Below, piece by piece: positions 8,405-45,485 of a DNA stretch of 64,000 nucleotides (position 1 is its first letter; the number at the start of each line of letters is the position of its first letter). Location of the stretch: assembly GCA_026005175.1 (NCBI GenBank), contig BPKO01000002.1, forward strand, positions 280,501-344,500, read 5' to 3'. This DNA is from Candidatus Tectimicrobiota bacterium. Its GTDB lineage: Bacteria; Tectomicrobia; Entotheonellia; Entotheonellales; Entotheonellaceae. The position numbers and the translations under genes were made by a program. A model generated the notes under the pieces. That model was not told the origin of the DNA. It did not search any database and saw only the letters and a list, made by a program, of their open reading frames with translations.

Positions 8405-8437
8405 TGACAAAGTGTCGGCCCGCTGGACGAACTGTCG
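8405..8437 (+). promoter_or_regulatory. Tandem GACA-N3-TGTC dyads, activator sites for the USP sigma-54 promoter
   Basis: Two 13-base dyads lie here: TGACA-AAG-TGTCG (8405-8417) and GGACG-AAC-TGTCG (8425-8437). Their centres are 20 bp apart, two helical turns. A half-site GGACA is at 8454. They end 65 bases upstream of a sigma-54 promoter, the usual placement for NtrC-family enhancer sites. The same motif recurs at 11563-11596 and 23056-23088. Confidence 0.65.
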
Positions 8438-8502
8438 GGGGAGCCAGGAAAGGGGACAAAGGCCACGCCTGGGTTTGCAAGAGACCTGCCCGTGAGGAGG
8501 GC

Positions 8503-8518
8503 TGGCACGACTCTTGCG
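8503..8518 (+). promoter_or_regulatory. Sigma-54 promoter of the universal stress gene
   Basis: TGGCACGACTCTTGCG matches the consensus TGGCAC-R-N4-TTGC-W at every conserved position except the last. Transcription would start near 8529, 31 bases before the ATG at 8560. Confidence 0.8.
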
Positions 8519-8559
8519 AGAAGCAAGGGTACGTCGGCTCGCACGAGAAGGAGACCCCC

Positions 8560-8985
8560 ATGCCGCACTACTTGGTTGCCACCGACTTCAGTTCCCACGC
8601 CGATGAGGCCCTCACCACCGCGCTGGCGCTGGCGCAGCGGCTCGGTGCCCGCCTTACCCTGCTACACGTGATTGCCCGGCCGCCCCTGGGCGAAGCCAGC
8701 TGGCTGTCGTACCTGGCAGAAGTCGAAGCCGAGGCCAGAGAGGCGCTGGAACGCCGCCTGGCGCGGGTACGCGAAGCCGGGCTAGAGGGCGAGGCGGTGG
8801 TGGTGCACGGCATTCCCTGGCAAGAAATCGTGGCACAAGCACAAGCCCGCAAAGCCGACCTCGTCGTCGTGGGCACCCACGGCCGCAGCGGGTTGCTGCA
8901 CGCACTGCTGGGCAGCGTGGCGGAAAAAGTGGTGCGCCACGCCCCCTGTCCGGTCTTGGTGGTGCGCACCGCCGCGGCGGCGTAG
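8560..8985 (+). CDS. Universal stress protein (UspA family)
   Basis: 141-residue cytosolic UspA-domain protein. The start LVATDFSSHADEALTTAL and the nucleotide-binding segment GTHGRSGLLHALLGS (G-2x-G-9x-G-S) show an ATP-binding type USP. The ATG follows GAGAAGGAGA. It is the first gene behind a sigma-54 promoter with tandem activator sites, followed by a second USP, a kinase-like gene and a third USP on the same strand. USPs bind ATP and help cells survive starvation or low oxygen. Confidence 0.92.
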   Translation: MPHYLVATDFSSHADEALTTALALAQRLGARLTLLHVIARPPLGEASWLSYLAEVEAEAREALERRLARVREAGLEGEAVVVHGIPWQEIVAQAQARKADLVVVGTHGRSGLLHALLGSVAEKVVRHAPCPVLVVRTAAAA

Positions 8986-9030
8986 TGGCGGGATTTCCCC
9001 TGCAGCGACAGGGGCAGGCGGGAGGAAAGG

Positions 9031-9513
9031 ATGTACCGGCGGATCCTCGTGCCCCTGGACGGCTCGGCGCTGGCCGCCGGGGTGCTCGAGCATCTCCTCG
9101 CCTTGGCCCGGCGCTACCGGGCACAGCTCATTTTGCTTACGGTAGGCCCCCCGGCGGCGGGCGAAAGCCGCGCCGCGCGCGGCACGCACTGGCCGTCGAC
9201 GTTTGAGGCGGAAGCCTACCTGCTGCGCCTGCGCGACTGGGTGCGGGCGCAGGGCTTGGAAGCACGCGTGGTGGTACGCATTGGCGACCCGGCGGCCGAG
9301 ATCCTGGCCTGCGCCGAGCGCGAGGGGGCCGATCTTATCGTGATGGCTTCGCGCGGCGGTGGTGGCACCCCGTCTCCCTTTCTGGGCAGCGTGGCGGCAC
9401 GCGTGCTGCGCGCTGCCACCGTCCCTGTGCTGGTGCTCCGCGTGGCCGCCGCGCCGCCCCCTTCCCGCGGAGAAGGGCCTGCGGTGACTTTTCCTGCGCT
9501 GGCGCCGTCGTAA
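9031..9513 (+). CDS. Universal stress protein (UspA family), second copy
   Basis: 160 residues, starting YRRILVPLDGSALAAGVLEHLL. The C-terminal segment SRGGGGTPSPFLGS is a variant of the ATP-binding loop, and VPVLVLRV ends the fold. A 20-residue alanine/proline tail follows. GGAGGAAAGG precedes the ATG. It lies 45 bases after the first USP and 11 bases before the kinase-like gene, so the set is probably cotranscribed from the sigma-54 promoter at 8503. Confidence 0.9.
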   Translation: MYRRILVPLDGSALAAGVLEHLLALARRYRAQLILLTVGPPAAGESRAARGTHWPSTFEAEAYLLRLRDWVRAQGLEARVVVRIGDPAAEILACAEREGADLIVMASRGGGGTPSPFLGSVAARVLRAATVPVLVLRVAAAPPPSRGEGPAVTFPALAPS

Positions 9514-9524
9514 AGGAGACGCCG

Positions 9525-11090
9525 ATGCTTGACCCAGCCCTGCGCGCCGCCCTGGCCGATCCGGCCTTCTATCCCGAGCCCACGACGCGCGTGGAGGTGC
9601 GCGAGACGCACATCTCGCTGGTCTTTCTCACCGACCGCTATGCCTACAAGCTGAAAAAGCCCGTAGACCTCGGCTTCCTCGACTACTCGACTCTGGCCCG
9701 CCGGCGCTTTTACTGCCTGCAAGAGCTGCTGCTCAACCGGCGCTTGAGTCCTGACGTCTACCTGGCCGTGCTGCCCATTCGCCGCGGCCCGCAGGGCTAC
9801 GTCCTGGACGGCGAGGGGGCGCTGGTGGACTACGTCCTCAAAATGCGCCGCCTGCCCGACGAGCGCACGTTGCAGTCCCTACTACAGCGTGGGGAAGTGC
9901 CCCTGCCGGTGCTGGAGCGGCTGGCCCAGCAGCTGGCGGCGTTCCACCAAGCGCATCCGCTGCCCACCCCGGTGACGGGTTACGGCTCGCTGGCGCAGGT
10001 GCGCCACGACTGGGAGGAAAACTTTGCTCAGGCACAAACGGCCTGCCCGGCAGCGGTGCTCCCGCCGGCACAGGCACAGCAGATCCGCGAAGCGGTGCAG
10101 GACTTCCTGGCGCGGCGCGCCGGCTGGTTTGCGCAGCGCTGCGACGCCGGACGCATCCGCGACTGCCACGGCGACTTGCGGGCCGAGCACATTTACCTGC
10201 TTCCCGACGGGGAACTGCGCATTCTCGACTGCATCGAGTTCAACAAGCGCTTTCGCTACATCGATGTGGCCTCGGAAGTGGCTTTCTTGGCCATGGACCT
10301 CGAGCGCCTGGGCTTTGCCTCCCTGGCCCATGGCTTCGTGGCCGCCTACGCCCGCACTGCCCACGACGCTTCCCTCTACCGCCTGCTGGATTTCTACGTG
10401 TGCTATCGCGCTTACGTGCGCGGCAAAGTGGCCTGCCTGCGGCTGCGCGAGGCGCCGGGACAGGAAGAGGTGGCGCGCGACGCCGCGCGCTGCTTTGCCC
10501 TGGCCGCCCGCTACGCGGCGCGCTGCCGGCGGCCGCTGCTTCTCCTGACCAGCGGGCTGATCGGCAGCGGCAAGAGCACCCTGGCGGCAGGGCTGGCAGC
10601 CGCTCTTGACTTGCGGCGCTTTAGCTCTGACTGCCTGCGCAAGCAGCTGGCCGGACTGGCCCCCGAGACGCCGCAGCGCGTGGCGTACGGCACCGGCATT
10701 TACAGCGCCGAAGCCACGCGGCGCACCTACGAGCGCCTGGCCGAGCTGGCCGAGGCCGCCCTGCACCAGGGCGAGTCGGTGATCCTCGATGCCTCGTTTG
10801 CCAAGCGGGCCGAGCGCCAGCGCTGCCAGGCGCTGGCTGCCCGCCTGGGGGCAGAGTGCTTCGTGCTCGAGTGTCTGGCACCGCCAGAGGTGATCCGCCA
10901 GCGCCTGGCCGCGCGCCAGCACCAGCCCTCGGTGTCCGATGGCCGCTGGGAGCTCTTTGCCGCTTTCCAGCGCGACTACGAACCGGTCACCGAGTTCGAC
11001 CCCGCCCACCACCTGCGCATCGCCACCACCGGGGATGCCGAGCGCAGCCTTTACGAAGCCTTGGCCGCTATCCACGCAGGGAGGAGCTGA
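9525..11090 (+). CDS. Fused aminoglycoside-phosphotransferase-like and P-loop kinase-like protein
   Basis: 521 residues with two domains. Residues about 1-320 resemble the APH-like family (COG2187), with CHGDLRAEHIYL (catalytic loop) and ILDCIEFNKRFRYID (metal-binding DxD-like part). Residues about 335-521 form a small P-loop kinase (COG0645-like), with Walker A LIGSGKST and VILDASFAKRAER. The substrate is unknown. The fusion is common near universal stress genes in proteobacteria, and here it sits between USPs in one transcription unit. Confidence 0.85.
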   Translation: MLDPALRAALADPAFYPEPTTRVEVRETHISLVFLTDRYAYKLKKPVDLGFLDYSTLARRRFYCLQELLLNRRLSPDVYLAVLPIRRGPQGYVLDGEGALVDYVLKMRRLPDERTLQSLLQRGEVPLPVLERLAQQLAAFHQAHPLPTPVTGYGSLAQVRHDWEENFAQAQTACPAAVLPPAQAQQIREAVQDFLARRAGWFAQRCDAGRIRDCHGDLRAEHIYLLPDGELRILDCIEFNKRFRYIDVASEVAFLAMDLERLGFASLAHGFVAAYARTAHDASLYRLLDFYVCYRAYVRGKVACLRLREAPGQEEVARDAARCFALAARYAARCRRPLLLLTSGLIGSGKSTLAAGLAAALDLRRFSSDCLRKQLAGLAPETPQRVAYGTGIYSAEATRRTYERLAELAEAALHQGESVILDASFAKRAERQRCQALAARLGAECFVLECLAPPEVIRQRLAARQHQPSVSDGRWELFAAFQRDYEPVTEFDPAHHLRIATTGDAERSLYEALAAIHAGRS

Positions 11091-11091
11091 C

Positions 11092-11562
11092 GTGGCCACG
11101 ATTCGCCGCATCCTGGTTGCCATCGACTTTTCTGACCTCTCACCGGTGGTCATGGACTACGCCCGCACCCTGGCCACCGCTCTGCAGGCCCGCCTGCTGG
11201 TGGTGCACATCGTCTATGACTTGTCTTACTTTACGCCAACTTACGTGACCGATGCCCCGCTGCCCGAGCTGCAGCGCCGCCTGGAAGCCGAGGCCCACGA
11301 GCACCTCGAAGAACTCTGCCAGAGCGAACTCGGCGACGCCGTGCCCTACGAAGCCCTGGTGGTCACCGGACGCCCGGTGGCAGAAATCAACCGCCTGGTG
11401 CGCGAGCACGCCATCGACTGCCTGGTCATCGGCGCCCACAGCGCCGACAAGCCCGAGCACCAGCTCTTTGGCTGCACTGCCGAGCGCCTCTTCCACCAAA
11501 CCTACTGCCCTGTCTTCATGGTGCCCCCGCCGCGCGCCTCGGAAATCGTCACCCAGGGCTAA
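11092..11562 (+). CDS. Universal stress protein (UspA family), third copy
   Basis: 156 residues from a GTG start at 11092, two bases after the kinase stop, preceded by GGGAGGAG. RRILVAIDFSDLSPVV begins the fold. The nucleotide loop is GAHSADKPEHQLFG followed by CTAERLF, with the usual final Ser/Thr replaced by Cys, so ATP binding may be altered. It closes the stress-gene operon; the sites regulating gapdh follow directly. Confidence 0.9.
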   Translation: MATIRRILVAIDFSDLSPVVMDYARTLATALQARLLVVHIVYDLSYFTPTYVTDAPLPELQRRLEAEAHEHLEELCQSELGDAVPYEALVVTGRPVAEINRLVREHAIDCLVIGAHSADKPEHQLFGCTAERLFHQTYCPVFMVPPPRASEIVTQG

Positions 11563-11596
11563 GGACAAAATGCATCCTCCAGGTGACAAAATGTCA
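11563..11596 (+). promoter_or_regulatory. Tandem GACA-N3-TGTC dyads upstream of gapdh
   Basis: GGACA-AAA-TGCAT (11563-11575) and a perfect TGACA-AAA-TGTCA (11584-11596, flanked to GTGACA/TGTCAC) have centres 21 bp apart. They end 54 bases before a sigma-54 promoter, so they look like enhancer sites for an NtrC-family activator. Confidence 0.65.
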
Positions 11597-11649
11597 CTTT
11601 TGTGCGGCACCTGCGGCCGTTTGGTGCTATGTTCTTGGGAGGGGAAAGG

Positions 11650-11665
11650 CGGCACGCGCTTTGCT
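11650..11665 (+). promoter_or_regulatory. Sigma-54 promoter of gapdh
   Basis: CGGCACGCGCTTTGCT carries GGCACG and TTGCT with exact -24/-12 spacing. Transcription would start near 11676, 34 bases before the gapdh ATG. Confidence 0.75.
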
Positions 11666-11709
11666 CAGCAAAGGGGGAGGCAGTTCCGTTTCGCGAGAAG
11701 GAGAATCCC

Positions 11710-12712
<1,003 letters not shown>

Positions 12713-12735
12713 GCTGCCCTTGCTGAGGAGCGGGC

Positions 12736-14144
12736 ATGACGGAAGCCAAAGTCCTGGTGGTCGACGACGAAGTGGAGATGCTGACGCTGCTGCGCAGCTA
12801 CCTGAGCCGCGAGGGCTACGCGGTCAAAACCGCACCCAGCGCCGAAACGGCGCTGCAGCTTCTCGAAGAGCACGACTTCGACGTGGTGCTCACCGACTTG
12901 CGCATGCGCGGCATGAGCGGCCTGGAGCTGCTGCAGGAGATCCGGGCGGCGCGGCCCGAGACGCAGATCATCTTGATGACCGCCTTTGGCAGCATCGAGA
13001 CGGCCATCGAGGCGATCAAAGCCGGTGCCTACCACTTCGTCACCAAGCCGGTGAAGCTGCCCGAACTCGGGGTGCTGGTGCGCAAGGCGCTGAGCGACCG
13101 CGACTTGCACCGCGAGAACCGGCAGCTGCGGCAGGCGGTGGCCGAGCGCTACGCCTTTGGCCAGCTGCTGGGCAAAAGCGCCGTCATGCAGCGCCTTTTT
13201 GCCCAGCTCGAGCGCCTAGCGGCAACCAGCAGCACCGTCCTCATCCAGGGCGAAAGCGGGCACCGGCAAGGAGCTGGTAGCGCGGGCTTTGCACTACAAC
13301 GGCCCGCGCCAGCGCTACCCCCTTTGTCCCCGTCAACTGCGCTGCGCTGCCCGAGGGGTTGCTGGAAAGCGAGCTCTTTGGCCACACCAAGGGGGCTTTC
13401 ACCGGGGCACAGGTAGCGCGGCGGGGGCTGTTCCTGGAGGCTTCTAAGGGAACGCTGTTTCTCGACGAGATCGGCGAGATGCCTCTGGGCATGCAGGCCA
13501 AGCTGCTGCGCGCCCTGGAGCAAGGGCGCATCCGGCCGGTGGGCAGCGACCGCGAAGTGGAAATCGACGTGCGCGTCATTGCCGCCACCAACCAGGACCT
13601 GGAGGCGGCGGTGCGCCGCGGCACGTTTCGCGAGGACCTCTACTACCGCCTCAAGGTGCTGGTGGTGCGGGTGCCGCCGCTGCGCGAGCACCGCGAAGAC
13701 ATCGCCTTTTTGGCTGAGACCTTTCTGCAGCGCTACGTGGCGGCCAACCAGCTGCCGCCGCGGCGCTTCACGCACGCCGCCTTGCGCCGCCTGGAGCAGT
13801 ACGACTGGCCGGGCAACGTGCGGGAGCTGGCGCACGTCATCGAGCGCGCCGTGACCCTGAGCAATGGCGAGTGGATCGACGTGGCCGACCTGGGCCTGGA
13901 AGAAAGCCTCCCTGCCACGGCACCGGCCGCGGGGGGAGGGGAGGTCCCCTGGCCCGATCCCCGGCAGCTGCCTGCCGAGGCCTTTAACCTCGACAAGGTC
14001 ACGCAGCGCCTGGTCGTGGCCGCCCTGGAGCGCACCCGCGGCCACAAGGCCCGCGCCGCGGCGCTGCTGGGCGTTCACCCCCGCACCCTCACGCGCATGC
14101 TGCGGCGCTACGGGCTCTGCGCTCAAGAGGCAGCGGGCAGCTGA
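12736..14144 (+). CDS. NtrC-family sigma-54 activator, orphan response regulator (two one-base breaks)
   Basis: Residues 1-120 are a receiver domain with phospho-acceptor aspartate in [13 protein letters not shown] and the lysine in FVTKPVK. A sigma-54 AAA+ domain follows, with Walker A region GESGTGKE, the GAFTGA loop in [10 protein letters not shown] and a Walker B FLDEIGEM. The end is a Fis-type helix-turn-helix ([20 protein letters not shown]). An extra G near 13255-13259 and an extra C at 13318-13322 split the frame; corrected, it is 468 residues. It lies 23 bases after gapdh with no histidine kinase nearby. It is the best local candidate to bind the GACA-N3-TGTC sites. Confidence 0.92.
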
Positions 14145-14170
14145 GCCTGCCGCGAGCAAAGGAGAAAGCC

Positions 14171-14287
14171 ATGGCCAACGACCCCTCGTTTCGTCCCAAA
14201 GGGGCTTTGACGTTCATTCTCATCTACCTGGTGTTAATCACCCTTATCTGGATCAACGCCTACTTGCGCCTCTGGTTCAAGGGCTAA
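14171..14287 (+). CDS. Cytochrome c oxidase subunit IIa (ba3-type small subunit)
   Basis: 38-residue single-helix protein, MANDPSFRPKGALTF followed by ILIYLVLITLIWINAYLRLW. This matches subunit IIa of ba3-type oxidases, a lone membrane helix that substitutes for the missing first helix of subunit [15 protein letters not shown] precedes the ATG. It lies 26 bases after the regulator and directly before subunit II. Confidence 0.8.
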   Translation: MANDPSFRPKGALTFILIYLVLITLIWINAYLRLWFKG

Positions 14288-14290
14288 GCC

Positions 14291-14780
14291 ATGCGACGCG
14301 ATACCGTCCTATACCTTTACGAGCTGGCCTGGATCCTGCCCAGCTGTGGCCATCCCCGTGGGCATGCTGGCGGCGCTGCTGGTGACAGCCTTTGGGGCCC
14401 ACCTGGGCTTGCCCGGCGATGCCGGCCGCATTGACCCTACGCAGGTGGCCCAGACGCCGCCCTTCGACCGCCCCGGCGTGTTCGAAGTCGCCCCCGGGCG
14501 CTACGAGGTGGTGATGGTGGCCGGCATCTGGGTTTTTACGCCCAATGTCATTACTGTTCCCGAGGGATCCGAAGTGACCTTTATTGCCACCAGTCGCGAC
14601 GTGATTCACGGCTTCTTTTTGCCCCACGCCGACGTCAACGTTATGCTCTTGCCCGGCCGCGTTGCACGGGTTACGGCGCGCTTTCCTAAAGCCGGAGAAT
14701 ACCCCTTTGTCTGTCACGAGTACTGCGGCATTGCCCACCACACCATGGCGGGCAAAGTGATCGTCGTGCCACGGTCGTAA
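14291..14780 (+). CDS. cbaB: ba3-type cytochrome c oxidase subunit II (broken by one base)
   Basis: One membrane helix (about residues 14-37) anchors a periplasmic CuA domain. The ligand cluster CHEYCGIAHHTM and the histidine in DVIHGFFLPHADVN are intact. An extra C in the run at 14339-14341 shifts the frame after LAWILP; corrected, the protein is 162 residues, the expected short form for ba3 enzymes. It delivers electrons from cytochrome c to subunit I. Confidence 0.92.
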
Positions 14781-14801
14781 CCTGGCAAGGAGACACCGCC
14801 T

Positions 14802-16451
14802 ATGGCCCAGGCTGCTTTGCCTTCCCTGCGCTCCGAGCGCCGCCTGGGCGGCGCTTACCTGCTGGTGGCCCTGCTGGCCCTCTTTGTCGGCGTGGCCACC
14901 GGCCTTTTGCAGGCCCTCGACCATGCCGGCCTCAACCTCTACCCCCAGGTGCTGCCGCTGCTCAAGTCTTACTACCACGGGCTCAGCCTGCACGGGGTGA
15001 TGAACATCCTGGTGTGGACGACTTTTTTCATCTGTGGCTTTCTGCAGTATCTGGCGGCGCGCGCCTTTGCCCGTCCCTTAGTCTCCCCGGCCCTGGCGTG
15101 GTTCACGTTCTGGCTGATGACCGCCGGCCTGGTGCTGGCTGCTATTCCCTTGTTGGGCAACCACGCCACCGTGCTCTTTACGTTCTATCCCCCCATGCGC
15201 GCCCACTGGGCATTCTACGTGGGCCTGACCCTGGTGGTGGTCGGCACCTGGCTGGTCACTTGGCGGCTGGTGCTCACCTACCGCGCCTGGCGCCGCGAGC
15301 ACCCACAGACGCGCACGCCGCTGGCCGCTTTTATGGCCTTGGTGACATTTGTCATGTGGACGCTGGCCTCGCTGGGCCTGGCGGTCGAGATGCTGGTGCT
15401 GCTCATCCCCTGGTCTCTGGGGTGGCGCCAGGGCACTGACCCGCTGCTGGCGCGTACCCTCTTCTGGTTTACCGGCCACCCCATCGTCTACTTTTGGCTG
15501 CTGCCGACGTATATCTCCTGGTACACCCTGGTGCCGCGCCAAGCCGGCGGACAGCTCTTCAGCGACCCCATGGCCCGAGCTTCGTTCTTGCTCTTTTTGC
15601 TGCTTTCGACGCCGGTAGGCTTCCACCACCAGTATACCGACCCTGGCATCGAGCAGGGCTGGAAGCTGGTGCACGCCTTTTTTACCTTTGCCGTTTTCTT
15701 CCCCAGCCTGCTCACCTTCTTCAACGTCGTGGCCTCACTCGAAATCGGCGCCCGGCGCCGTGGCGGTCAGGGACTCTTTGCCTGGTTTCTCAAACTGCCC
15801 TGGGGTGATCCCTCGCTGGCCGCACAAGTGCTAGCTATGATCCTCTTCGCGTTTGGCGGCATCGGTGGCCTGGTGAATGCCTCGTACAGCCTGAACCTGG
15901 TGGTGCACAACACCACCTACGTGGTTGGCCACTTCCACCTCACGGTGGGCACGGCCGTCACCCTATCGTTTATGGGCATCACTTACTGGCTGGTGCCGGT
16001 GCTGCGCGGCCGTGACTTGTGGAGCCGGCGCCTGGCCCTGGTGCAGGTGTGGCTGTGGTTCGCGGGCATGACGGTGTTTTCCTTTGCCTTGCACGACCTG
16101 GGCTTGCAGGGCATGCCGCGACGCACCATGATCAGCCTGGCCACCTATGTGCAGGCGGCGTGGCGTCCCATGATGCTACTGGTGGGTATTGGCGGCACGG
16201 TGCTGTTTCTCAGTGCCCTCCTCTACTTTCTCAACCTGGTGCTGACCTGCCTGGCCTCGCCACGGCCGGCTCCCGAAGAGCCGGCGTTTGCCGAGGCGCT
16301 TTCGGGGCCAGAGGAGGCGCCGGCCATTCTCGACCGCTGGCGTCCCTGGCTGCTTGCCGCGGTGGTGTTCATTCTTATTGCCTACGGCCCCACCCTGGTG
16401 CACCTTTTCCGCACCACGCCGCTTACCGTGCCCGGCTGGCGCGTCTGGTAG
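14802..16451 (+). CDS. cbaA: ba3-type cytochrome c oxidase subunit I (B-type)
   Basis: 549 residues and about 13 membrane helices. FWFTGHPIVYFWLLP contains the CuB His and Tyr but lacks the D-channel Glu of A-type enzymes, and GFHHQYTDPG and VGHFHLTVG carry the CuB and haem ligands. These features mark a B-type (ba3) oxidase, a family with high oxygen affinity. It lies in a unit with gapdh and an NtrC-type regulator behind the sigma-54 promoter at 11650, so it may be used under stress or low oxygen. It ends six bases from the convergent riboflavin synthase gene. Confidence 0.95.
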   Translation: MAQAALPSLRSERRLGGAYLLVALLALFVGVATGLLQALDHAGLNLYPQVLPLLKSYYHGLSLHGVMNILVWTTFFICGFLQYLAARAFARPLVSPALAWFTFWLMTAGLVLAAIPLLGNHATVLFTFYPPMRAHWAFYVGLTLVVVGTWLVTWRLVLTYRAWRREHPQTRTPLAAFMALVTFVMWTLASLGLAVEMLVLLIPWSLGWRQGTDPLLARTLFWFTGHPIVYFWLLPTYISWYTLVPRQAGGQLFSDPMARASFLLFLLLSTPVGFHHQYTDPGIEQGWKLVHAFFTFAVFFPSLLTFFNVVASLEIGARRRGGQGLFAWFLKLPWGDPSLAAQVLAMILFAFGGIGGLVNASYSLNLVVHNTTYVVGHFHLTVGTAVTLSFMGITYWLVPVLRGRDLWSRRLALVQVWLWFAGMTVFSFALHDLGLQGMPRRTMISLATYVQAAWRPMMLLVGIGGTVLFLSALLYFLNLVLTCLASPRPAPEEPAFAEALSGPEEAPAILDRWRPWLLAAVVFILIAYGPTLVHLFRTTPLTVPGWRVW

Positions 16452-16457
16452 GCGGGG

Positions 16458-17066
16458 TTAGGCCTGGGGCGCGCCACTGCGGCTGGCGAGGAGCTTTTCG
16501 ACGTACTTGCCCAGGATGTCCACTTCCAGGTTCACCTGCCGGCCCGGGGTGTAGTGGCGCGCCACCGTCACGGCGCGGGTGTGGGGAATCAGCGACACGC
16601 GGAACCAGTCGGGGCCGGTGTCGACCACGGTGAGGCTCATGCCGTCGACGGCAATATAGCCCTTGGGCACAACGTACTTCATCAGCGCCGGCGGGACGCG
16701 GAAGGTCACCAGCACCCCGTCGCCGTCGGGCTGCGTGGCAACGATGTCGCCGGTGGCATCGACGTGCCCCTGCACGAAGTGGCCGCCCAGGCGGCCGGTG
16801 GCGGCCAGGGCGCGCTCGAGATTGACGGCATCGCCGACGCGCAGCTGCCCCAGAGTGGTCTTGCGCAAGGTCTCGGGGGCCAGCTCCACGGTAAAGCGCT
16901 GGGCATCGGCGCGCACCACGGTGAGGCAGACGCCGTTGACGGCAATGGAGTCGCCCACGCGCACGTCTTCCAGGACGCGCCGGGCGCCCAGGGTGAGCAC
17001 CACGCCGCCGGGGCGCTGCACCACCTCGAGGACGGTGCCCGTTTCTTCCACGATGCCGGTGAACAT
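16458..17066 (-). CDS. ribE: Riboflavin synthase, alpha chain
   Basis: 202 residues starting MFTGIVEETG, with the two repeated lumazine-binding barrels (first copy GDSIAVNGVCLTVV, second YIAVDGMSLTVV). It converts two 6,7-dimethyl-8-ribityllumazine molecules into riboflavin. GRLGGHFVQGHVD is the conserved central motif. The start after GAGGAGAAAAGGCC is preferred over an upstream in-frame codon. It is the last gene of a seven-gene minus-strand run starting with pncB; no other riboflavin gene is present. Confidence 0.95.
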   Translation of the reverse strand: MFTGIVEETGTVLEVVQRPGGVVLTLGARRVLEDVRVGDSIAVNGVCLTVVRADAQRFTVELAPETLRKTTLGQLRVGDAVNLERALAATGRLGGHFVQGHVDATGDIVATQPDGDGVLVTFRVPPALMKYVVPKGYIAVDGMSLTVVDTGPDWFRVSLIPHTRAVTVARHYTPGRQVNLEVDILGKYVEKLLASRSGAPQA

Positions 17067-17108
17067 GGCCTTTTCTCCTCTGCAGCGGATCGACCGCAAG
17101 TCCGCCCT

Positions 17109-18254
17109 TTACCAGGACACCCCAGGCAGCAAGGGGAGGAGGATCGAGACGGCGATGAGCACGATGATGATCCACTCGAGGATTTCCATGCGCCGGTTGG
17201 CGGCGCGGTCGGCCAGCTTCTGGTAAATGCTTTCTAAGGTTTGTAGCTTGCGCAGGATACTGGCGTCCCACTCCTCGAGGTGAAAGCGCTGCGAGGCCAG
17301 GCGGTAGACGCGCGCCAGGTACTGGTCGCCCAGCAGCTTGAGGGCGTTGTTGACGCCTTCGAAGAGCATGGCGCTGTCGACTTGCAGCTGGCCGATGCGC
17401 CGCAAGTCGGCGCCCGAAGCGCCCGGCAGCCACAGGCGGTGCCAGGAGCGGCGTGACAGCGTTTCGTAGGCCTGGTCGAGGGCCTCGTCGAGCTGGTCGT
17501 CGAGAAAGCGCAGCTCGAGCAGCTCGACGTTGGCAAACTCCAGCACGGCGCGCACGTCGTCCATGTCGCGGCCAATGAGCAGCGCGGCGTTCCAGTCGAT
17601 AACGGTGAGGTCGTCGAGGCCAAAGGAAAGGCGGCACGCCAGGGCGTCACGCACTTCCTGTGCCGACAGCTGCCGGTGCTCAAAGCGCAGCAGCTGGGCC
17701 AGGGCCTGGGCATGCGTGGTGTACAGCGCCGGGATGGGGCACGGCGTGCGAAAGGCCTCGATGTGGAAAACGGTGTAGTCCTCAACCATCTCGGCAATGG
17801 CAGGGCGGACCACGGCCGGGGCGATAAGGGCCAGGAGCTGCTCGACGCGCCGGCGCGCGTCCTCGAGCAGCTGCGGGTTGTCGTACAGCGCGTCGCTTAA
17901 GGCCAGCAGGCGTGCCAGCGGCCCCTCAAGGGGGAAAGTGTAGGTGAGTGACACGGCGCCAAAGTCGTAGAGCACCGCCTCCACCGTGGAGTTGCTGCGG
18001 TACTCCCCGAGGCAGAGTGGCTCGGTCTCCTGAACGATGCGCAGCGGTGCCGGATGGTAGGCAAAGTACTGCGGTGCGCGCCGCTTGTGGGCCAGCGTCG
18101 CCCGCTCGGTGGCCAGGGTGAGGTGCTGCTCGCAGGCCGCCAAATCGATGGCCAGGCCGATGTCATAAGCCAAGAAGACGTAACATGTCCCCTGCGCCAC
18201 GGCGAGGGACGTGGCCAACACCTCGAGGTGTGGGTGTGAGGCAGGCAGGTTCAT
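17109..18254 (-). CDS. RMD1/DUF155 family protein
   Basis: 381 residues. The centre has LYDFGAVSLTYTFPLEGP and the C-terminus has a coiled region (ILRKLQTLESIYQKLADRA) before one terminal membrane helix (ILEWIIIVLIAVSILLPLL), the layout of the RMD1/DUF155 family. The molecular role in bacteria is unknown; the fungal relatives are mitochondrial or sporulation-related. It lies between methionine adenosyltransferase and riboflavin synthase. CGGAG precedes the ATG. Confidence 0.8.
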   Translation of the reverse strand: MNLPASHPHLEVLATSLAVAQGTCYVFLAYDIGLAIDLAACEQHLTLATERATLAHKRRAPQYFAYHPAPLRIVQETEPLCLGEYRSNSTVEAVLYDFGAVSLTYTFPLEGPLARLLALSDALYDNPQLLEDARRRVEQLLALIAPAVVRPAIAEMVEDYTVFHIEAFRTPCPIPALYTTHAQALAQLLRFEHRQLSAQEVRDALACRLSFGLDDLTVIDWNAALLIGRDMDDVRAVLEFANVELLELRFLDDQLDEALDQAYETLSRRSWHRLWLPGASGADLRRIGQLQVDSAMLFEGVNNALKLLGDQYLARVYRLASQRFHLEEWDASILRKLQTLESIYQKLADRAANRRMEILEWIIIVLIAVSILLPLLPGVSW

Positions 18255-18286
18255 CGGACTCCGTTTGCTGCGCTAAGGACCGGTGG

Positions 18287-19492
18287 TCACCACACGGGGA
18301 TGGCGCCGTGCACCAAGCGCTCGATAAACGCCGGCATGTTGGCAAGCTCGGCCTCTACGAGGTCGGTGATGGGGCGTTCGACCTCGTAGAGGCCGGTGCC
18401 GGGGGCAAGCCGCACCTGCACCGAGGTGACCCACGGCCTGTCAATGGGGGCGCCGATCTGGCTGCACAGCCAGACGTAGACTTCTTCTACCGGCTCGAGG
18501 GCCTCGTAAAGGCGCTCGGCCAGGTGGTGGGCGAGCAGCGAGTAGATCTTGCCCACGTGGCTCACGGGATTTTTGCCCGCTGCCGATTCGCTCCCAGCAG
18601 GGCGGTTGAGGCTGATGACTCCGTTGACGCGGTTGCCGCGCCCCACCTGGCCGCCGTCGCCGCTTTCGGCCGAAGTGCCCAGCACGGTGAGGTACATGCC
18701 GCCTAGGCCGCGGCCGGGGGCGTCCAGGGTGTTGAGGTGCACCGACACGCTCTCGAGCTGGCGCAGCTCGCCTTCCAGGTAGCGCTGCAGCGCCTCGGCC
18801 ACCGCCGCCTTGCGCTCAAAGTACGTCCGTTCGTCGGGGATGAAGCGGTCCACGAAAGCCAGCGCCACGGTGAGGGAGAGGTGGCGCTCCTGGCGGCAGC
18901 CCATGATTTTCACGTCTTCCCCTGTTTCGGGAAAGCGTGCTTTGAAAGCCGGTGAGTTGAGGTAACGTTCTGCCGCCAGCACGCAGCGCTCGGTCTCCGT
19001 CAGCGGCGCATAGCCCACCGCCGCCGAGGTGTCGTTGGCCCCCAGCGGCTGGCGGGCAAAGAGGTCGACGAGCTCCGGCGAGCCGGGGCGCAGCTCGTTT
19101 TGCAGCACCAGGTGGTGCTGCGGGTCAACAAAGCGCAGGTGCTCGCCAATCCAGCGCCGCACCGTTTCCGCAACGAGCTCGGCCACCGGCAGGGGCTCGC
19201 CTTGCCACGCCAGGGTGGCCCGATCCCCCACGATGAGGCGCATGGGCACCTCGACGCGGCCACCCCCCAGGGCCGGTGTGGTCTGTCCGGCCACCAGCAG
19301 CCCCTTGTCGAGGTTGTAGTGCAGCACGCGGCCAGCGGCGGCGAGGTAGGCCTGGCAGAGGGCCACGGAGACGGCCTCCATGAGGGCGTCGCACAGGGTG
19401 TCGGGGTGACCGAGGCCCTTGCGCTCCACCAGCTCCAGGCGCTGCTGGCTCACCGGAACCCCGGGCAAGTGCTCGAGGATGAGGCGCGACAC
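18287..19492 (-). CDS. mat: Archaeal-type methionine adenosyltransferase
   Basis: 401 residues from a GTG start. ERKGLGHPDTLCDALMEAV, LHYNLDKGLLVAG and VNGVISLNRPAGSESAAGKNP are characteristic of the archaeal S-adenosylmethionine synthetase family (PF01941), not the usual bacterial MetK. It makes S-adenosylmethionine from methionine and ATP. Some bacteria carry this form as a second enzyme. It lies 12 bases after the HPF-cold-shock gene in the same run, which suggests a condition-specific isozyme. Whether a standard metK exists elsewhere is unknown. Confidence 0.93.
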   Translation of the reverse strand: MSRLILEHLPGVPVSQQRLELVERKGLGHPDTLCDALMEAVSVALCQAYLAAAGRVLHYNLDKGLLVAGQTTPALGGGRVEVPMRLIVGDRATLAWQGEPLPVAELVAETVRRWIGEHLRFVDPQHHLVLQNELRPGSPELVDLFARQPLGANDTSAAVGYAPLTETERCVLAAERYLNSPAFKARFPETGEDVKIMGCRQERHLSLTVALAFVDRFIPDERTYFERKAAVAEALQRYLEGELRQLESVSVHLNTLDAPGRGLGGMYLTVLGTSAESGDGGQVGRGNRVNGVISLNRPAGSESAAGKNPVSHVGKIYSLLAHHLAERLYEALEPVEEVYVWLCSQIGAPIDRPWVTSVQVRLAPGTGLYEVERPITDLVEAELANMPAFIERLVHGAIPVW

Positions 19493-19504
19493 GGCCAGGG
19501 TTTC

Positions 19505-20032
19505 CTAGCGGGGCAGGCGCAGCGGCAGGACGCGCGAAGCCTGGGGACCGGCATGGCCCTGCTCGATGTCGAGCTCCACAGGCATGCCCACTTCGAGCGC
19601 CTCAAAGGGGATCTCGTGCACGGAATTGGCGTGGAAGTAGACCTCACGGTGCGACTCGGTCTCGATAAACCCGTAGCCGCGATCGCGAAACAGGCGCACG
19701 ATGCGGCCGCGCGGCCGCGGGCCAGGCTCCTTGAGGACTTGCCGCCGCTTGTCGCGAAACGCCTGAAGCTCGCGCCAGATGACATCGAAGACGCCATAGA
19801 CGGCGTCCTCGATGGTATCGCCTTGACACGAAGCGCTCAGGGTCTTGCCGGGCAGGGTGAGCACCACACGTGCCTCGTCGCTGCCTTTGAGGTGATGGCC
19901 GCTCTTGACCACCGTCACCCGGGCGTGCAGGATGTCGTGGTGCGAGTCGTTGAGCTCTTCCAGGCGCTCGGCAATCCAGCCCCGTAAACCCGGTTCGAGT
20001 TCCGTGTGCTGCGCTTCGATGCGGATCTGCAT
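19505..20032 (-). CDS. Ribosome hibernation factor (HPF/RaiA) fused to a cold-shock domain
   Basis: 175 residues. Residues 1-95 follow the HPF/RaiA/YfiA fold (MQIRIEAQHTELEP and VVLTLPGKTLSASCQGDTIEDAV). Residues about 108-172 are a cold-shock RNA-binding domain (GRIVRLFRDRGYGFIET with VYFHANSV). HPF proteins bind in the 30S decoding groove and hold idle ribosomes; the attached CSD would add RNA binding. GGAGGGAGG precedes the ATG. It is nine bases after the eRF1-like gene. Confidence 0.9.
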   Translation of the reverse strand: MQIRIEAQHTELEPGLRGWIAERLEELNDSHHDILHARVTVVKSGHHLKGSDEARVVLTLPGKTLSASCQGDTIEDAVYGVFDVIWRELQAFRDKRRQVLKEPGPRPRGRIVRLFRDRGYGFIETESHREVYFHANSVHEIPFEALEVGMPVELDIEQGHAGPQASRVLPLRLPR

Positions 20033-20041
20033 ACCTCCCTC

Positions 20042-21175
20042 CTACTTGTAGCGCAGTAAGGCACCCACCCCTTCGTACGCTGCCAGCCGCGGATCGGGCG
20101 CGATGAGCTCCACCTCGCCGTCAAGCGCCAGCACCCTGGCCACCAGCGCTTCTCCGAGGTCAACGGCAGCGGGCGTCCCACCGCAGGCCGGACACGCCGC
20201 CGGCGGTGCCTCTTCTCCCAACCAGCCGCAGGCGGTGCAGCGCCAGCCGGGATGGCGCAGGTCGCGGTGCATGACCAGCTTGTGCACGCGCCCGGTGTTG
20301 GCAGCGGCCAGCGTCTCCTGGCGGCCCACCACTGCCAGGCCGCCGCGCGCAGCACGCGACAGCAAGAGCTCCACCGTGGCCTGTTCTTCCTCGCGCTCGT
20401 GGCGTTCCAGAACTTGGCGGGCCACTTCTACGATGCGTGTTTCTGGCGCATGGAGGTCGAGCGACGCCGCTTCGAGCACCTGTGGCTGCACGGCAGGCGG
20501 CAAGAAACGCCGGAAGTTGGCCCGCACCTCCTCGGGGCCAGCCAGGATAAGGCGGGCGTGGGGTTGCCGCTGCAGGCAAGCGATCAGGTAGTCCGCCACT
20601 TCCTTGTGGTGGCGGTCGATATGGTCCTTGACGTGGCGCTGGTAGCGCATCTGCGCCCAGCCACCTTGCTTGTGGCGCCCGGGCACTTCGGCGTTGAAGG
20701 CGGTTTCGGAAAGCAGGCCGCCTAAGACCACCTCGCAGACGCGGGCGGCGCGCGAGTCCACCAGCACCACCAGGGCATTGGTGTAGTCCTCGTCCAGGCG
20801 GGCCAGCTGCCGCAGCGCCGGGCGCTCGGCAATCGTGAACTCGTTTTCGAAGGGCACGGGCGCCGGTAGCTCCACCCACAGCCCGGCACCGTTGCAAGCA
20901 AAAAGGGCATAGCCGGGGGCCGTCACCTCCAGGGTGCGATGCCGCAGCTTTTCTTGCCACGCCTCGAGGCGGGCGAGATCGGCGTCCAGGCTGGCTTGCG
21001 CTTCGGCCTGCTCAAGCGTGAGCAGGCGAGCCTGGCGCAGGTGGCGGGTGAGAAACGTGAGGACCTGCTCGCGCTGGTGCTGGTCGCGCCACTGGGTGTC
21101 GAGGTAGACGCTCACCACCGGCAGCGTGCCGCCGGAGAACTTGGCCAGCTCGCGTAGTTCTTTGGTAATTTCCAT
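20042..21175 (-). CDS. Bacterial eRF1-family (baeRF) protein, candidate ribosome rescue factor
   Basis: 377 residues. The N-terminal domain contains GGWAQMRYQRHVKDH, the position of the catalytic Gln loop (GGQ-like) in eRF1/Vms1-type peptidyl-tRNA hydrolases. The central segment ARLILAGPEEVRANF resembles eRF1 domain 3. A C-terminal zinc ribbon has CTACGW and CPACGG. Such proteins are predicted to act on stalled or idle ribosomes. ATG 21175 is seven bases after GGAGG; a GTG at 21181 would overlap the DksA-like stop. Neighbours are an HPF fusion and a DksA-like gene, supporting a ribosome-linked role. Confidence 0.8.
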   Translation of the reverse strand: MEITKELRELAKFSGGTLPVVSVYLDTQWRDQHQREQVLTFLTRHLRQARLLTLEQAEAQASLDADLARLEAWQEKLRHRTLEVTAPGYALFACNGAGLWVELPAPVPFENEFTIAERPALRQLARLDEDYTNALVVLVDSRAARVCEVVLGGLLSETAFNAEVPGRHKQGGWAQMRYQRHVKDHIDRHHKEVADYLIACLQRQPHARLILAGPEEVRANFRRFLPPAVQPQVLEAASLDLHAPETRIVEVARQVLERHEREEEQATVELLLSRAARGGLAVVGRQETLAAANTGRVHKLVMHRDLRHPGWRCTACGWLGEEAPPAACPACGGTPAAVDLGEALVARVLALDGEVELIAPDPRLAAYEGVGALLRYK

Positions 21176-21177
21176 CC

Positions 21178-21531
21178 TCACGCCTCCGCCGAGACTTCTT
21201 GCGTTTCCTGGCAGCGCACACAGCGGCGCGCCGTAGGCAGCACTTCCAGGCGCGCCCGCGGAATTTCCTTACCGCAGGCCTCGCAGCGGCCGTACGTGCC
21301 CGCCTCGAGGCGTGCCAACGCCGCCTGGATCTCTTCCCACTCGCGCCGGCTCTGCTCGTCGAGCAGCTCGAGGTCGAGTTCCGTGTCTTCAGCCTGAGCG
21401 CGGTCGCCGTATTCGATTTCGCGCTCGCTGGCAGCGGCCAGCTCGGCCTCCAGGTCGTAAATGCGGCGCACGAGAGCGCGTTGCTGTTCCAGGAGGCGCT
21501 GGCGGAAGGCTTCCCGCGTGGCGGCGTCCAT
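21178..21531 (-). CDS. DksA/TraR-type zinc-finger protein
   Basis: 117 residues: a long charged coiled coil (about 1-80) and a C4 zinc finger (CEACGKEIPRARLEVLP followed by CVRCQ) close to the C-terminus. DksA proteins insert the coiled-coil tip into the RNA polymerase secondary channel and modulate the stringent response with ppGpp. AAGGAG precedes the ATG. It lies 12 bases after pncB and two bases before the eRF1-like start. Confidence 0.92.
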   Translation of the reverse strand: MDAATREAFRQRLLEQQRALVRRIYDLEAELAAASEREIEYGDRAQAEDTELDLELLDEQSRREWEEIQAALARLEAGTYGRCEACGKEIPRARLEVLPTARRCVRCQETQEVSAEA

Positions 21532-21543
21532 GCTCTGTGCTCC

Positions 21544-22920
21544 TTAACCGGTGTAATGCTGGAGCAGCTCGCTCTCCACCTCTTGCTGCACGGCGCGCAG
21601 TTCGGCGCTGAGCCGCACCGGGTAGGTGGCGCCACCGCTGAGACGGCGGTATGGCTCGGGCAGCCGGCGCATGGCTTCCAGGTGTCGATCGCGAGCCTCG
21701 TGCAGGCTGGGCAGTGTTCCCAGGCGCCGGCCGTCGCGCATCACCTCCTGCAAGAGCGGCTCCGCCGCGGGCGCTGGCGGCGCTTCGTCGCGCAAGGTTA
21801 AAATGTCCTCTACATAATGACCGTCTCTGGTGCAGCGCCACACCTGCTTGTCTTCAGGGAGGGTGGCCTTGTCGGCACTCAGCTTGGCCACCGGGCGGCC
21901 GTCGTACTTGACCAGCTTGTAAGCGATGTCGTAGTACGGCGCGCCCGCTGACACCCCCATGCGTGTTCCCACACCAAAGACGTCAACGCAGCCCCCGGCG
22001 CGCAGGATGGCGTCGATGGCGTATTCGTCGAGGCCGCCGCTGGCGACGATACGCACCTCGTTGAGCCCGGCGGCATCGAGCATGGCCCGCACCTGCTTGC
22101 TCAGCGCCGCGATGTCGCCGCTGTCAAGGCGCACTCCGCGCAGCTTGTGGCCAGCCCGCGCCAGCTCCTGGCCCACCTGGACGGCGTGGCGGGCGCCCAC
22201 TAGGGTGTCGTAGGTGTCGATGAGCAGCACCGTCTGGTCGGGATAGGTAGCGGCAAAGGCCCGAAAGGCCTCCAGCTCGTCGGCAAAGCTCATGATGTAC
22301 GAGTGGGCCATGGTGCCCGAGATGGGAATGCCGTAATAGCGACCGGCCAGGACGTTGCTGGTGCCCTCAAACCCGGCCAGGTAGCTGGCCCGCGCCACTT
22401 TCATCGCCGCGTCGGTGCCGTGCGTGCGCCGCAGGGCAAAGTCGATGAGGGCCCGCCCCCGCGCCGCCTGCACGCAGCGCGCCGCCTTGGTGGCCACTAG
22501 CGTTTGCAGGTGAACGGCATTGATGACAAAGCTCTCGACCAACTGGGCGTCGATGATCGGCGCCGTCACTTCCAGGATCGGCTCGTTGACAAAGAACACC
22601 GTGCCTTCGGGCATGGCCACCACGTCGCCACGGAAGCGCCAGTTGGCCAGGTAAGCAAGGAAGTCCTCGGTAAAGCGCCCCGTCTGGCGCAAGTAGGCCA
22701 GCGCCGAGGGTGGAAAGTGGACCGCTTCCAGGTACTCCAGCACGGTGGCCAGCCCCGCGGCCACAAAATACGTGAAGTCTGGCGGATAGCTGCGAATGAA
22801 GAGGCTAAACGTCGCCGTACCGTTGTGGCGGTGATGAAAGTAGCTCTGGGCCATGGTGAGCTGGTAGAGATCCGTCAGCAGCCCCAACTCGTCTACCCCG
22901 ATGCCCGTTGCCTCGGCCAT
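21544..22920 (-). CDS. pncB: Nicotinate phosphoribosyltransferase
   Basis: 458 residues. LLTDLYQLTMAQSYF starts the enzyme; FALRRTHGTDAAMKVARA and RLDSGDIAALSKQVR are the phosphoribosyl and nicotinate-binding motifs, and FGVGTRMG follows. It salvages nicotinate into the NAD pathway in the cytosol. The start follows AAGGAGT. It is the first gene of the seven-gene minus-strand run, 53 bases from a perfect sigma-54 promoter. Confidence 0.95.
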   Translation of the reverse strand: MAEATGIGVDELGLLTDLYQLTMAQSYFHHRHNGTATFSLFIRSYPPDFTYFVAAGLATVLEYLEAVHFPPSALAYLRQTGRFTEDFLAYLANWRFRGDVVAMPEGTVFFVNEPILEVTAPIIDAQLVESFVINAVHLQTLVATKAARCVQAARGRALIDFALRRTHGTDAAMKVARASYLAGFEGTSNVLAGRYYGIPISGTMAHSYIMSFADELEAFRAFAATYPDQTVLLIDTYDTLVGARHAVQVGQELARAGHKLRGVRLDSGDIAALSKQVRAMLDAAGLNEVRIVASGGLDEYAIDAILRAGGCVDVFGVGTRMGVSAGAPYYDIAYKLVKYDGRPVAKLSADKATLPEDKQVWRCTRDGHYVEDILTLRDEAPPAPAAEPLLQEVMRDGRRLGTLPSLHEARDRHLEAMRRLPEPYRRLSGGATYPVRLSAELRAVQQEVESELLQHYTG

Positions 22921-22972
22921 GCCCACACTCCTTGCAAATGCCCATGCCTGGCACGCCGTGCTTCGGTAAGGA

Positions 22973-22988
22973 AGCAACGCCTGTGCCA
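22973..22988 (-). promoter_or_regulatory. Sigma-54 promoter of the pncB operon (minus strand)
   Basis: Read on the minus strand from 22988, TGGCACAGGCGTTGCT matches the consensus at every conserved position. Transcription would start near 22962, about 42 bases before the pncB ATG. It is divergent from the sigma-54 promoter at 23142 and shares the tandem dyads at 23056-23088. Confidence 0.8.
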
Positions 22989-23055
22989 TCCCGGTGTCGC
23001 CCTAATTATGGCCACAAAGGCCCTTCTGGACAACCCTGCCTGGCCAGGCGAGCAC

Positions 23056-23088
23056 CGACAGGTTGTCCGCTCTGGGGACAAGTTGTCC
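23056..23088. promoter_or_regulatory. Tandem GACA-N3-TGTC dyads between two divergent sigma-54 promoters
   Basis: CGACA-GGT-TGTCC (23056-23068) and the perfect GGACA-AGT-TGTCC (23076-23088) have centres 20 bp apart. They lie 67 bp from the minus-strand promoter and 53 bp from the plus-strand promoter, so one activator could serve both. A further half-site GGACA is at 23028. Together with the two promoters this accounts for the gene-free interval 22921-23289. Confidence 0.7.
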
Positions 23089-23141
23089 GAGGTGGTGGAG
23101 ACGACGGCAGCGGGGTGCGCAGCGTGCGGGAGCAGTCCCTC

Positions 23142-23157
23142 TGGCACGCTTTTTGCC
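23142..23157 (+). promoter_or_regulatory. Sigma-54 promoter of the glycosyltransferase gene
   Basis: TGGCACGCTTTTTGCC matches TGGCAC-R-N4-TTGC with exact spacing. Transcription would start near 23168 and leave a 120-base leader. Confidence 0.75.
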
Positions 23158-23289: not shown

Positions 23290-24393
23290 ATGCGGATCGC
23301 GCAAGTGGCACCTTTGTACGAGAGCGTGCCGCCTAAGCTCTACGGCGGCACGGAGCGCGTGGTCTCGTATCTCACCGAAGAACTCGTGCGTCAAGGGCAC
23401 GAGGTGACGCTTTTTGCCAGTGGCGACTCGCAGACGCGAGCCCGGCTGGTGTCGCCGTGCGCGCGGGCTTTGCGGCTCGACGCGCGCTGCCGCGACCCGC
23501 TCGTGTACCACATCCTCATGCTCGAGCAGGTCTTTCGCGAGGCGGCCGATTTTGACCTCATCCACTTCCACATCGACTACCTCCACTTCCCGCTGGTGCG
23601 GCGGCAGCTGACCCCGGCCCTCACCACCCTGCACGGGCGGCTGGACCTTCCCGACCTGGTGCCGCTGTACCGCGAGTTTGGCGACCTGCCGGTGGTGTCG
23701 ATCTCCAATGCCCAGCGGCAGCCGCTGCCTTGGCTCAACTGGCAGGGGACGGTGTACCACGGCCTGCCGCCCGACCTCTACACGTTCCAGCCGCAGCCGG
23801 GTTCGTATCTGGCCTTTTTAGGCCGCATTTCGCCGGAGAAGCGGCCCGACCGGGCCATCGACATCGCCCTGCGCACCGGCATGCCCCTTAAAATCGCCGC
23901 CAAAGTGGACCGCGTTGACCGCGCCTACTTTGAAGAGGTCATTCGGCCGCGGCTGCGCCATCCCCTGGTGGAGTACCTGGGCGAAATCGGCGAAGCCGAA
24001 AAGAATGCCTTCTTGGGCAACGCCTACGCGTTGCTCTTTCCCGTGGACTGGCCCGAGCCCTTCGGCTTGGTGATGATCGAGGCCCTGGCCTGCGGCACGC
24101 CGGTGATTGCCTACCGCTGCGGCTCGGTGCCAGAAGTGCTCGAACACGGGGTCACCGGCTACATCGTCGACGGCCTGGAAGAAGCGGTGCGGGCCGTGGA
24201 ACGCATCCCCTTGCTGAGCCGCCAGCAGTGCCGGCAGGTGTTCGAGGCGCGGTTTTCGGTTGCCCGCATGGCCCGCGACTACCTGGCCATTTACGAGCGG
24301 CTGCGGCACACCCGCCCGCCGGCCGTGTCCGTAGGCTTGCCGGCAGACGGCAGGCCGGTAGCGACTGCCGATTCCGTGGTCACCGCCGCCTAG
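23290..24393 (+). CDS. Family 4 glycosyltransferase
   Basis: 367 residues with the GT-B fold. KLYGGTERVVSYLTEEL is the glycine-rich acceptor-side loop, YLAFLGRISPEKRPD starts the donor-binding half, and EPFGLVMIEALACGTPVIA is the EX7E nucleotide-sugar motif. Substrates are unknown; proteins of this kind make glycans, trehalose-like sugars or envelope polysaccharide. GAGGAGGTG precedes the ATG. Its sigma-54 promoter and shared enhancers tie it to the divergent dormancy-type operon. Confidence 0.88.
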   Translation: MRIAQVAPLYESVPPKLYGGTERVVSYLTEELVRQGHEVTLFASGDSQTRARLVSPCARALRLDARCRDPLVYHILMLEQVFREAADFDLIHFHIDYLHFPLVRRQLTPALTTLHGRLDLPDLVPLYREFGDLPVVSISNAQRQPLPWLNWQGTVYHGLPPDLYTFQPQPGSYLAFLGRISPEKRPDRAIDIALRTGMPLKIAAKVDRVDRAYFEEVIRPRLRHPLVEYLGEIGEAEKNAFLGNAYALLFPVDWPEPFGLVMIEALACGTPVIAYRCGSVPEVLEHGVTGYIVDGLEEAVRAVERIPLLSRQQCRQVFEARFSVARMARDYLAIYERLRHTRPPAVSVGLPADGRPVATADSVVTAA

Positions 24394-24450: not shown

Positions 24451-24629
24451 GAAGCAGGAACGCCGGCCTCTGCGGCCTGCAGGGGTGGTGTGTGTCACCC
24501 CAGGGGCGTACTACCCGCAGGTGCGGCGCTCCCTGTTCCTGCGTTGGCCTGTCGTAGGGCGGCCGCGGGGCGGTCCCAGGGAGCCCCGCCAGAGGCTCTA
24601 TTGCGGCGGTGTTGCACGGAGAGAACCGC

Positions 24630-35733: not shown

Positions 35734-35746
35734 TGACATGTTGTCA
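35734..35746. promoter_or_regulatory. Single GACA-N3-TGTC-type dyad between gdhA and the Liv operon
   Basis: TGACA-TGT-TGTCA is a perfect 13-base dyad with the same half-sites as the tandem sites at 8405, 11563 and 23056. Here it is single and lies downstream of the gdhA promoter candidate, so it could be an operator or serve the minus-strand operon. Confidence 0.45.
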
Positions 35747-43610: not shown

Positions 43611-43626
43611 CGGCACGAAACTTGCA
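43611..43626 (+). promoter_or_regulatory. Sigma-54 promoter of the small secreted protein gene
   Basis: CGGCACGAAACTTGCA carries GGCACG and TTGCA with exact spacing. Transcription would start near 43637. The last dyad ends 66 bases upstream. Confidence 0.75.
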
Positions 43627-45470: not shown

Positions 45471-45485
45471 CGCTGTGAGGGTCGG

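Follow-up and report, generated by a model that had tools for sequence, protein, structure and literature searches.

Paired GACA-N3-TGTC dyads at sigma-54 promoters point to a dispersed regulon of an NtrC-type activator in an Entotheonellaceae bacterium

Dyads, promoters and genes in the window

The window, that is, the whole stretch of 64,000 nt that was analysed, carries genes for universal stress proteins (Usp), glyceraldehyde-3-phosphate dehydrogenase, a ba3-type oxidase, a glycosyltransferase and an NtrC-type activator, as well as an NAPRTase operon (Table 1). In the 'APH-AAA'-type protein encoded among the Usp genes, Pfam matched the AAA part only, and the APH part is presumed from general knowledge. 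Near-consensus sigma-54 promoters were expected from the preliminary description at 8503, 11650, 22988 (minus) and 23142, and all four are present. Their -24/-12 elements fit the consensus TGGCACG-N4-TTGCW and lie in intergenic regions ahead of genes. The three intergenic regions said to hold two dyads each were likewise found in place, with start-to-start spacings of 20, 21 and 20 bp. By contrast, the proposed dyad unit of 13 bp is hardly supported, the conserved core being 11 bp and the flanking base carrying 0.26 bit.

Table 1. Features of the window (positions within the 64,000 nt) and putative targets outside it (given by contig)
Feature	Position	Strand	Remarks
Dyad pair GACAAAGTGTC-N9-GACGAACTGTC	8406-8436 (8406-8416 + 8426-8436)	+	8/8 and 7/8 matches to GACA-N3-TGTC
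Sigma-54 -24/-12 element TGGCACGACTCTTGCG	8503-8518	+	66 bp from nearer dyad; 57 bp before usp gene 8560
Universal stress protein 1	8560-8985	+	Pfam Usp 3.6e-40
Universal stress protein 2	9031-9513	+	Pfam Usp 2.5e-31
'APH-AAA'-type protein, 521 aa, C-terminal AAA_33 kinase domain	9525-11090	+	Pfam AAA_33 3.6e-30
Universal stress protein 3	11092-11562	+	Pfam Usp 3e-24 on ORF 10939-11562
Dyad pair GACAAAATGCA-N10-GACAAAATGTC	11564-11595 (11564-11574 + 11585-11595)	+	6/8 (upstream copy, degenerate) and 8/8 matches to GACA-N3-TGTC
Sigma-54 -24/-12 element CGGCACGCGCTTTGCT	11650-11665	+	54 bp from nearer dyad
Glyceraldehyde-3-phosphate dehydrogenase	11711-12712	+	Pfam Gp_dh_N; frameshifted in assembly near 12110
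NtrC-type response-regulator activator, proposed activator	12736-14144	+	Pfam Response_reg, Sigma54_activat, HTH_8; receiver, AAA+ with GAFTGA, Fis-type HTH with 15-residue recognition helix
ba3-type oxidase subunits II and I	14346-16451	+	Pfam COX2, COX1; downstream of activator gene, operon membership putative
NAPRTase operon	16458-22920	-	NAPRTase, DksA/TraR-type zinc finger, baeRF release-factor family, S30AE/HPF-CSD hibernation factor, SAM synthetase, unknown, riboflavin-synthase-like
Sigma-54 -24/-12 element TGGCACAGGCGTTGCT	22973-22988	-	68 bp from nearer dyad
Dyad pair GACAGGTTGTC-N9-GACAAGTTGTC	23057-23087 (23057-23067 + 23077-23087)	.	8/8 and 8/8; common to two divergent promoters
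Sigma-54 -24/-12 element TGGCACGCTTTTTGCC	23142-23157	+	54 bp from nearer dyad
Group 1 glycosyltransferase, then ftsH (24609-26504)	23290-24393	+	
nosZ (Sec-dependent type), then nosD	C6		nosZ broken in assembly
CBS protein after molybdoenzyme operon; Usp; receiver + CBS	C6		
LTXXQ/metal-resistance, DUF302 and Rieske genes	C2		
Molybdopterin oxidoreductase with ArrB/DsrO-like subunit	C2		
DUF5335 and Usp	C11		
PAS-LuxR protein	C11		
DeoC/LacD-type aldolase + ATP-phosphofructokinase + PEP synthase	C11		
Short membrane protein + Hsp20 + LonB-like protease	C11		
RpoS/RpoD-like sigma factor, then Hsp20-like gene	C11		Hsp20-like gene by eye

Single dyads with at most one mismatch number 21 in the window, against 16 ± 3.6 expected; alone they give no significant signal, which resides in the pairs. 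A lone exact dyad at 35735-35745 stands 24 bp before the ORF at 35769, without a sigma-54 promoter. Near-consensus sigma-54 elements at 43611 and 46741 flank a second activator/kinase pair (44109-46610) and are without dyads.

The dyad-promoter pattern across the genome

Whole-genome pattern searches, of the kind that the preliminary description had proposed, bear out the association. The pair pattern, fixed before promoters outside the window were looked at, was matched 11 times in the 3.99-Mb genome (G000), and the reversed control pattern not once. At 25-100 bp from the pair, a -24/-12 element scoring at least 15 is found for nine of them, versus 0.6% of random positions and 2.9% of random intergenic positions; with a score of at least 14, the figures are 10/11 versus 1.4% and 3.8%, respectively. 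One dyad with a -24/-12 promoter at 42-72 bp gives 14 matches, and none for the control. This pattern adds the sites C2:264817, C11:118864 and C11:147192; another of its matches, C2:3630, has just a 7/8 single dyad and may be due to chance. With looser matching, about 15 sites are reached. The firm sites are confined to contigs C2, C6 and C11 (about 0.83 of the 3.99 Mb), and one doubtful pair on C5 (L063) has a weak promoter only and no gene behind it.

The dyad itself is rigid. Forty intergenic sigma-54-like promoters (score at least 14.5) were picked without regard to dyads; upstream of them, GACA-Nk-TGTC was counted 26 times with k=3 and at most once with each other k from 0 to 22. The converse arrangement, TGTC-Nk-GACA, is spread over N8-11, which corresponds to the variable gap between dyads. 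Since the samples for promoter enrichment and N3 spacing were partly picked around matches, it is the whole-genome counts of the patterns that are free of bias. Arbitrary contig ends totalling 500 kb held five exact single dyads, a background frequency, with no promoter nearby; permuted control dyads were likewise at background. The idea that dyads might be equally frequent away from sigma-54 promoters thus fails for paired dyads (11 versus 0; 14 versus 0; 9/11 versus 0.6-3%). The dyad-promoter observation is confirmed and extends well beyond the window.

Within pairs, the dyads lie 20-22 bp apart, about two helical turns, on one face of the helix, as in NtrC-type enhancers. Their distances to the promoter are quantised: 12 of the 16 fall at 54-55 or 66-68 bp, none of 20000 jittered sets was equally tight, and the two clusters differ by about one helical turn, as enhancer geometry predicts. 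Short palindromes are typical of many regulators, so an unrelated repressor or nucleoid protein could be imagined to bind dyads that happen to precede sigma-54 promoters. This explanation is very improbable, given that the pair-form dyads are found at sigma-54 promoters and have the geometry of an enhancer and not of an operator, with some two helical turns between the two dyads and quantised positions that lie mostly 54-75 bp upstream.

Among 80 distant activator loci from many phyla (1.79 Mb including relatives' loci), no pairs were found beyond those of relatives already detected by the pattern, and the site is therefore not common to this activator family at large. A search of the published literature for the GACA-N3-TGTC motif gave no match. 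In Desulfovibrio vulgaris, the sites of NtrC-family response regulators are typically 4-6-bp inverted repeats 3-8 bp apart (PMC3333781). These systems (e.g. DVU1063/FlbD-like, GGCAxxxxTGCC) also combine sigma-54-dependent response regulators with palindromic sites, but the half-site sequence is another one, the targets are pili, flagella and others, and such GACA or TGTC sites are absent from the main text of that paper (PMC3333781). The enterobacterial QseF/GlrR (TGTC-N10-GACA, glmY) is likewise a sigma-54 response regulator and shares the TGTC/GACA half-sites, which there stand in reverse order and 10 bp apart (PMC8745638). A binding unit of the QseF/GlrR type was rejected here, given the recurrence of GACA-N3-TGTC and the scatter of the converse arrangement. 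In an unrelated genome (G026), three GACA-N3-TGTC dyads at 22-bp spacing occur at L087:9936-9990 and, near-identical, at L088:10219-10273; having no sigma-54 promoter, they were set aside.

The 12736-14144 activator and sigma-54

The predicted product of the gene at 12736-14144 is the best candidate regulator of the dyads. Its receiver, GAFTGA-containing sigma-54 AAA domain and Fis-type HTH are all present and make it NtrC-type (RR-AAA-HTH). In the assembly, its Pfam domains are spread over two frames on the plus strand, with breaks in and just after the Walker A region. These breaks are probably sequencing errors, since a PNP gene elsewhere in the genome is also split over several frames. The assembly is 77% complete and indel-rich, which may also depress the completeness estimate. 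Frameshifted genes are many, mostly at short homopolymers (window 12110 and 13250; L065:7129-7965, nosZ; L259:5156-7269).

That this regulator is the activator had been a guess, and it gains independent support from two further genomes, where dyads front the corresponding activator. In a second genus (G001), the 69% ortholog (on G001:C248) is intact (463 aa; 73% and 70% identity over the two halves) and its recognition helix is identical. Its gene closes an operon encoding a 122-aa protein, DnaJ, a CbpM-like protein, APH-AAA and the activator; the operon opens with the dyads GACATAATGTC/GACAACCTGGC and the -24/-12 element TGGCATAGCCTTTGCA. In a third genus, from another family of the same class (G004), APH-AAA, Usp, paired dyads, a -24/-12 element and the activator N-terminus follow in succession to a contig end; through a 98.6% overlap, the activator gene runs on into contig C545, the top match of that genome to the 12736 regulator. 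APH-AAA relatives thus adjoin the dyad-linked activator in both. In a tree, the G000 and G001 activators group with full support, the placement of the G004 protein is not settled, and its HTH is just 37% identical to that of the 12736 activator. Neither dyad pairs nor a close ortholog were found in G002 and G003, of the same family. A short ORF in G001:C40 (L209:10092-10220, minus) encodes a stand-alone HTH that shares 74% identity and the recognition-helix core with the HTH of the activator and is possibly a remnant paralog or a dyad competitor.

The genome encodes ten GAFTGA-type activators (an eleventh match is ClpC-like), and a real regulon could have its dyads read by another of them, the 12736 gene being a mere target or a pseudogene. 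Indeed, the gene is broken in the assembly, and its membership of the regulon does not prove a regulator role. Two other activators are also common to G000 and G001 only, among the family genomes compared (not seen in G002 or G003), so the phyletic pattern alone does not single out the 12736 activator. Yet of all activator neighbourhoods that were read, that of 12736 alone combines paired dyads with a promoter, and the strong sigma-54 sites near other activators are without dyads. The alternative is unlikely: dyads precede this activator or its counterpart in three genera, the two close genera have the same recognition helix, and the 12736 frameshifts lie at short homopolymers in an assembly that also splits PNP.

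The weakest point of the case is rpoN itself. The preliminary description took a genome lacking rpoN as evidence against the regulon, and formally this applies to the present assembly, in which neither Pfam sigma-54 domain was matched and control domains were matched where expected; nor was rpoN found in G001 (89% complete). The absence is judged to be a gap, because relatives (the same-family G002 and G003 and the same-class G004) carry rpoN beside lptB and lptB is missing too: among the matches listed for G000 or G001, there is no lptB-like one above 40% identity. The whole rpoN-lptB segment therefore seems to be missing. Both genes are absent from two separate sister-genus assemblies, although they are adjacent in another, third genus of this family. 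Searches for rpoN, lptC and lptA at contig ends found none and did not locate the gap; RapZ as a marker had no match in any family member and is thus uninformative. If the lineage had lost rpoN, the promoters and dyads would be relics. The shared absence of rpoN and lptB from G000 and G001 would fit such a loss, but near-perfect -24/-12 elements and ten sigma-54-type activators would decay without sigma-54, and, with so many intact promoters, the relic scenario appears improbable.

Putative targets and likeness to known survival programmes

The putative target genes outside the window were identified with Pfam and NCBIfam. Three Usp operons stand among the putative targets. Several targets recur. 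HPF-CSD and baeRF belong to the NAPRTase operon in G000, and in G001 (62.9% and 56.1% identity) a separate pair and promoter precede them; DUF5335 has pairs upstream in both genomes, the one in G001 about 300 bp from the nearest promoter-like site. HPF-CSD with baeRF, DUF5335, Usp and APH-AAA are thus dyad-driven or dyad-linked in more than one genus.

The regulon interpretation of the preliminary description is supported, and the dyads probably mark a dispersed sigma-54 regulon under one NtrC-family response regulator, the 12736-14144 product. This regulator would bind as dimers to two dyads two helical turns apart and, once bound, would assemble into a ring whose GAFTGA loop is predicted to contact the sigma-54 holoenzyme at a -24/-12 promoter that in most cases lies 54-75 bp downstream. 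Judging from the promoters found, it would activate its own operon, the Usp operons, APH-AAA and the ribosome-hibernation/NAPRTase operon, and also gluconeogenic/glycolytic genes, nitrous-oxide reductase, other respiratory enzymes, Hsp20 and a second sigma factor. Genes for stress protection, ribosome resting and low-oxygen respiration thus appear to be switched on together by one dyad-binding activator, and a low-oxygen or dormancy reading would fit the wider target list. Since sigma-54 promoters are silent without their activator, the programme would be a tightly gated dormancy switch.

Two known systems invite comparison. DosR is a LuxR-type regulator with a different binding site and without a sigma-54 promoter, and its regulon also includes NAPRTase, a phosphoribosyltransferase and an Rv2004c-like APH-AAA protein. 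As here, the DosR regulon of Mycobacterium tuberculosis holds many Usp proteins, alpha-crystallin/Hsp20 and phosphofructokinase (PMC6127331). The low-oxygen-activated (lxa) locus of Burkholderia cenocepacia likewise has Usp, alpha-crystallin and phosphofructokinase, there co-regulated by low oxygen, but FixLJ/FixK-type control is discussed for it and sigma-54 does not figure in that paper (PMC6127331). Membership of the DosR regulon was rejected, the linked regulator being RR-AAA-HTH_8 and the site GACA-N3-TGTC. The present regulon is read as a DosR/lxa-like programme under sigma-54/NtrC-type control, belonging to neither system, which suggests that a survival programme of this type was assembled independently under sigma-54. 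What the sequence alone yields is a prediction of a particular activator, an exact DNA site and about 15 target promoters.

The likely signal would be low oxygen, NO or a change of respiratory state, and an unlinked histidine kinase would relay it. More speculatively, and on balance doubtfully, a whole dormancy/low-oxygen programme that is elsewhere run by DosR or FNR/FixK-type regulators (Usp, ribosome hibernation, NAD salvage, Hsp20, a glycolysis switch and N2O reduction) may have come under sigma-54 control as an all-or-none switch. Oxygen or NO would then be sensed by a globin-coupled histidine kinase, and the outputs would comprise an activator that amplifies itself and a second sigma factor. 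A plausible partner of the orphan 12736 activator might be the protoglobin histidine kinase (Pfam 2.5e-40) at L068:11544-12977 (G000:C11:81544-82977). Co-occurrence lends this pairing no support, as G002 and G003 have protoglobins too. The kinase gene starts 75 bp from the pair at C11:81439, is divergent from DUF5335-Usp, and is followed by a gene for a receiver-PAS-kinase protein.
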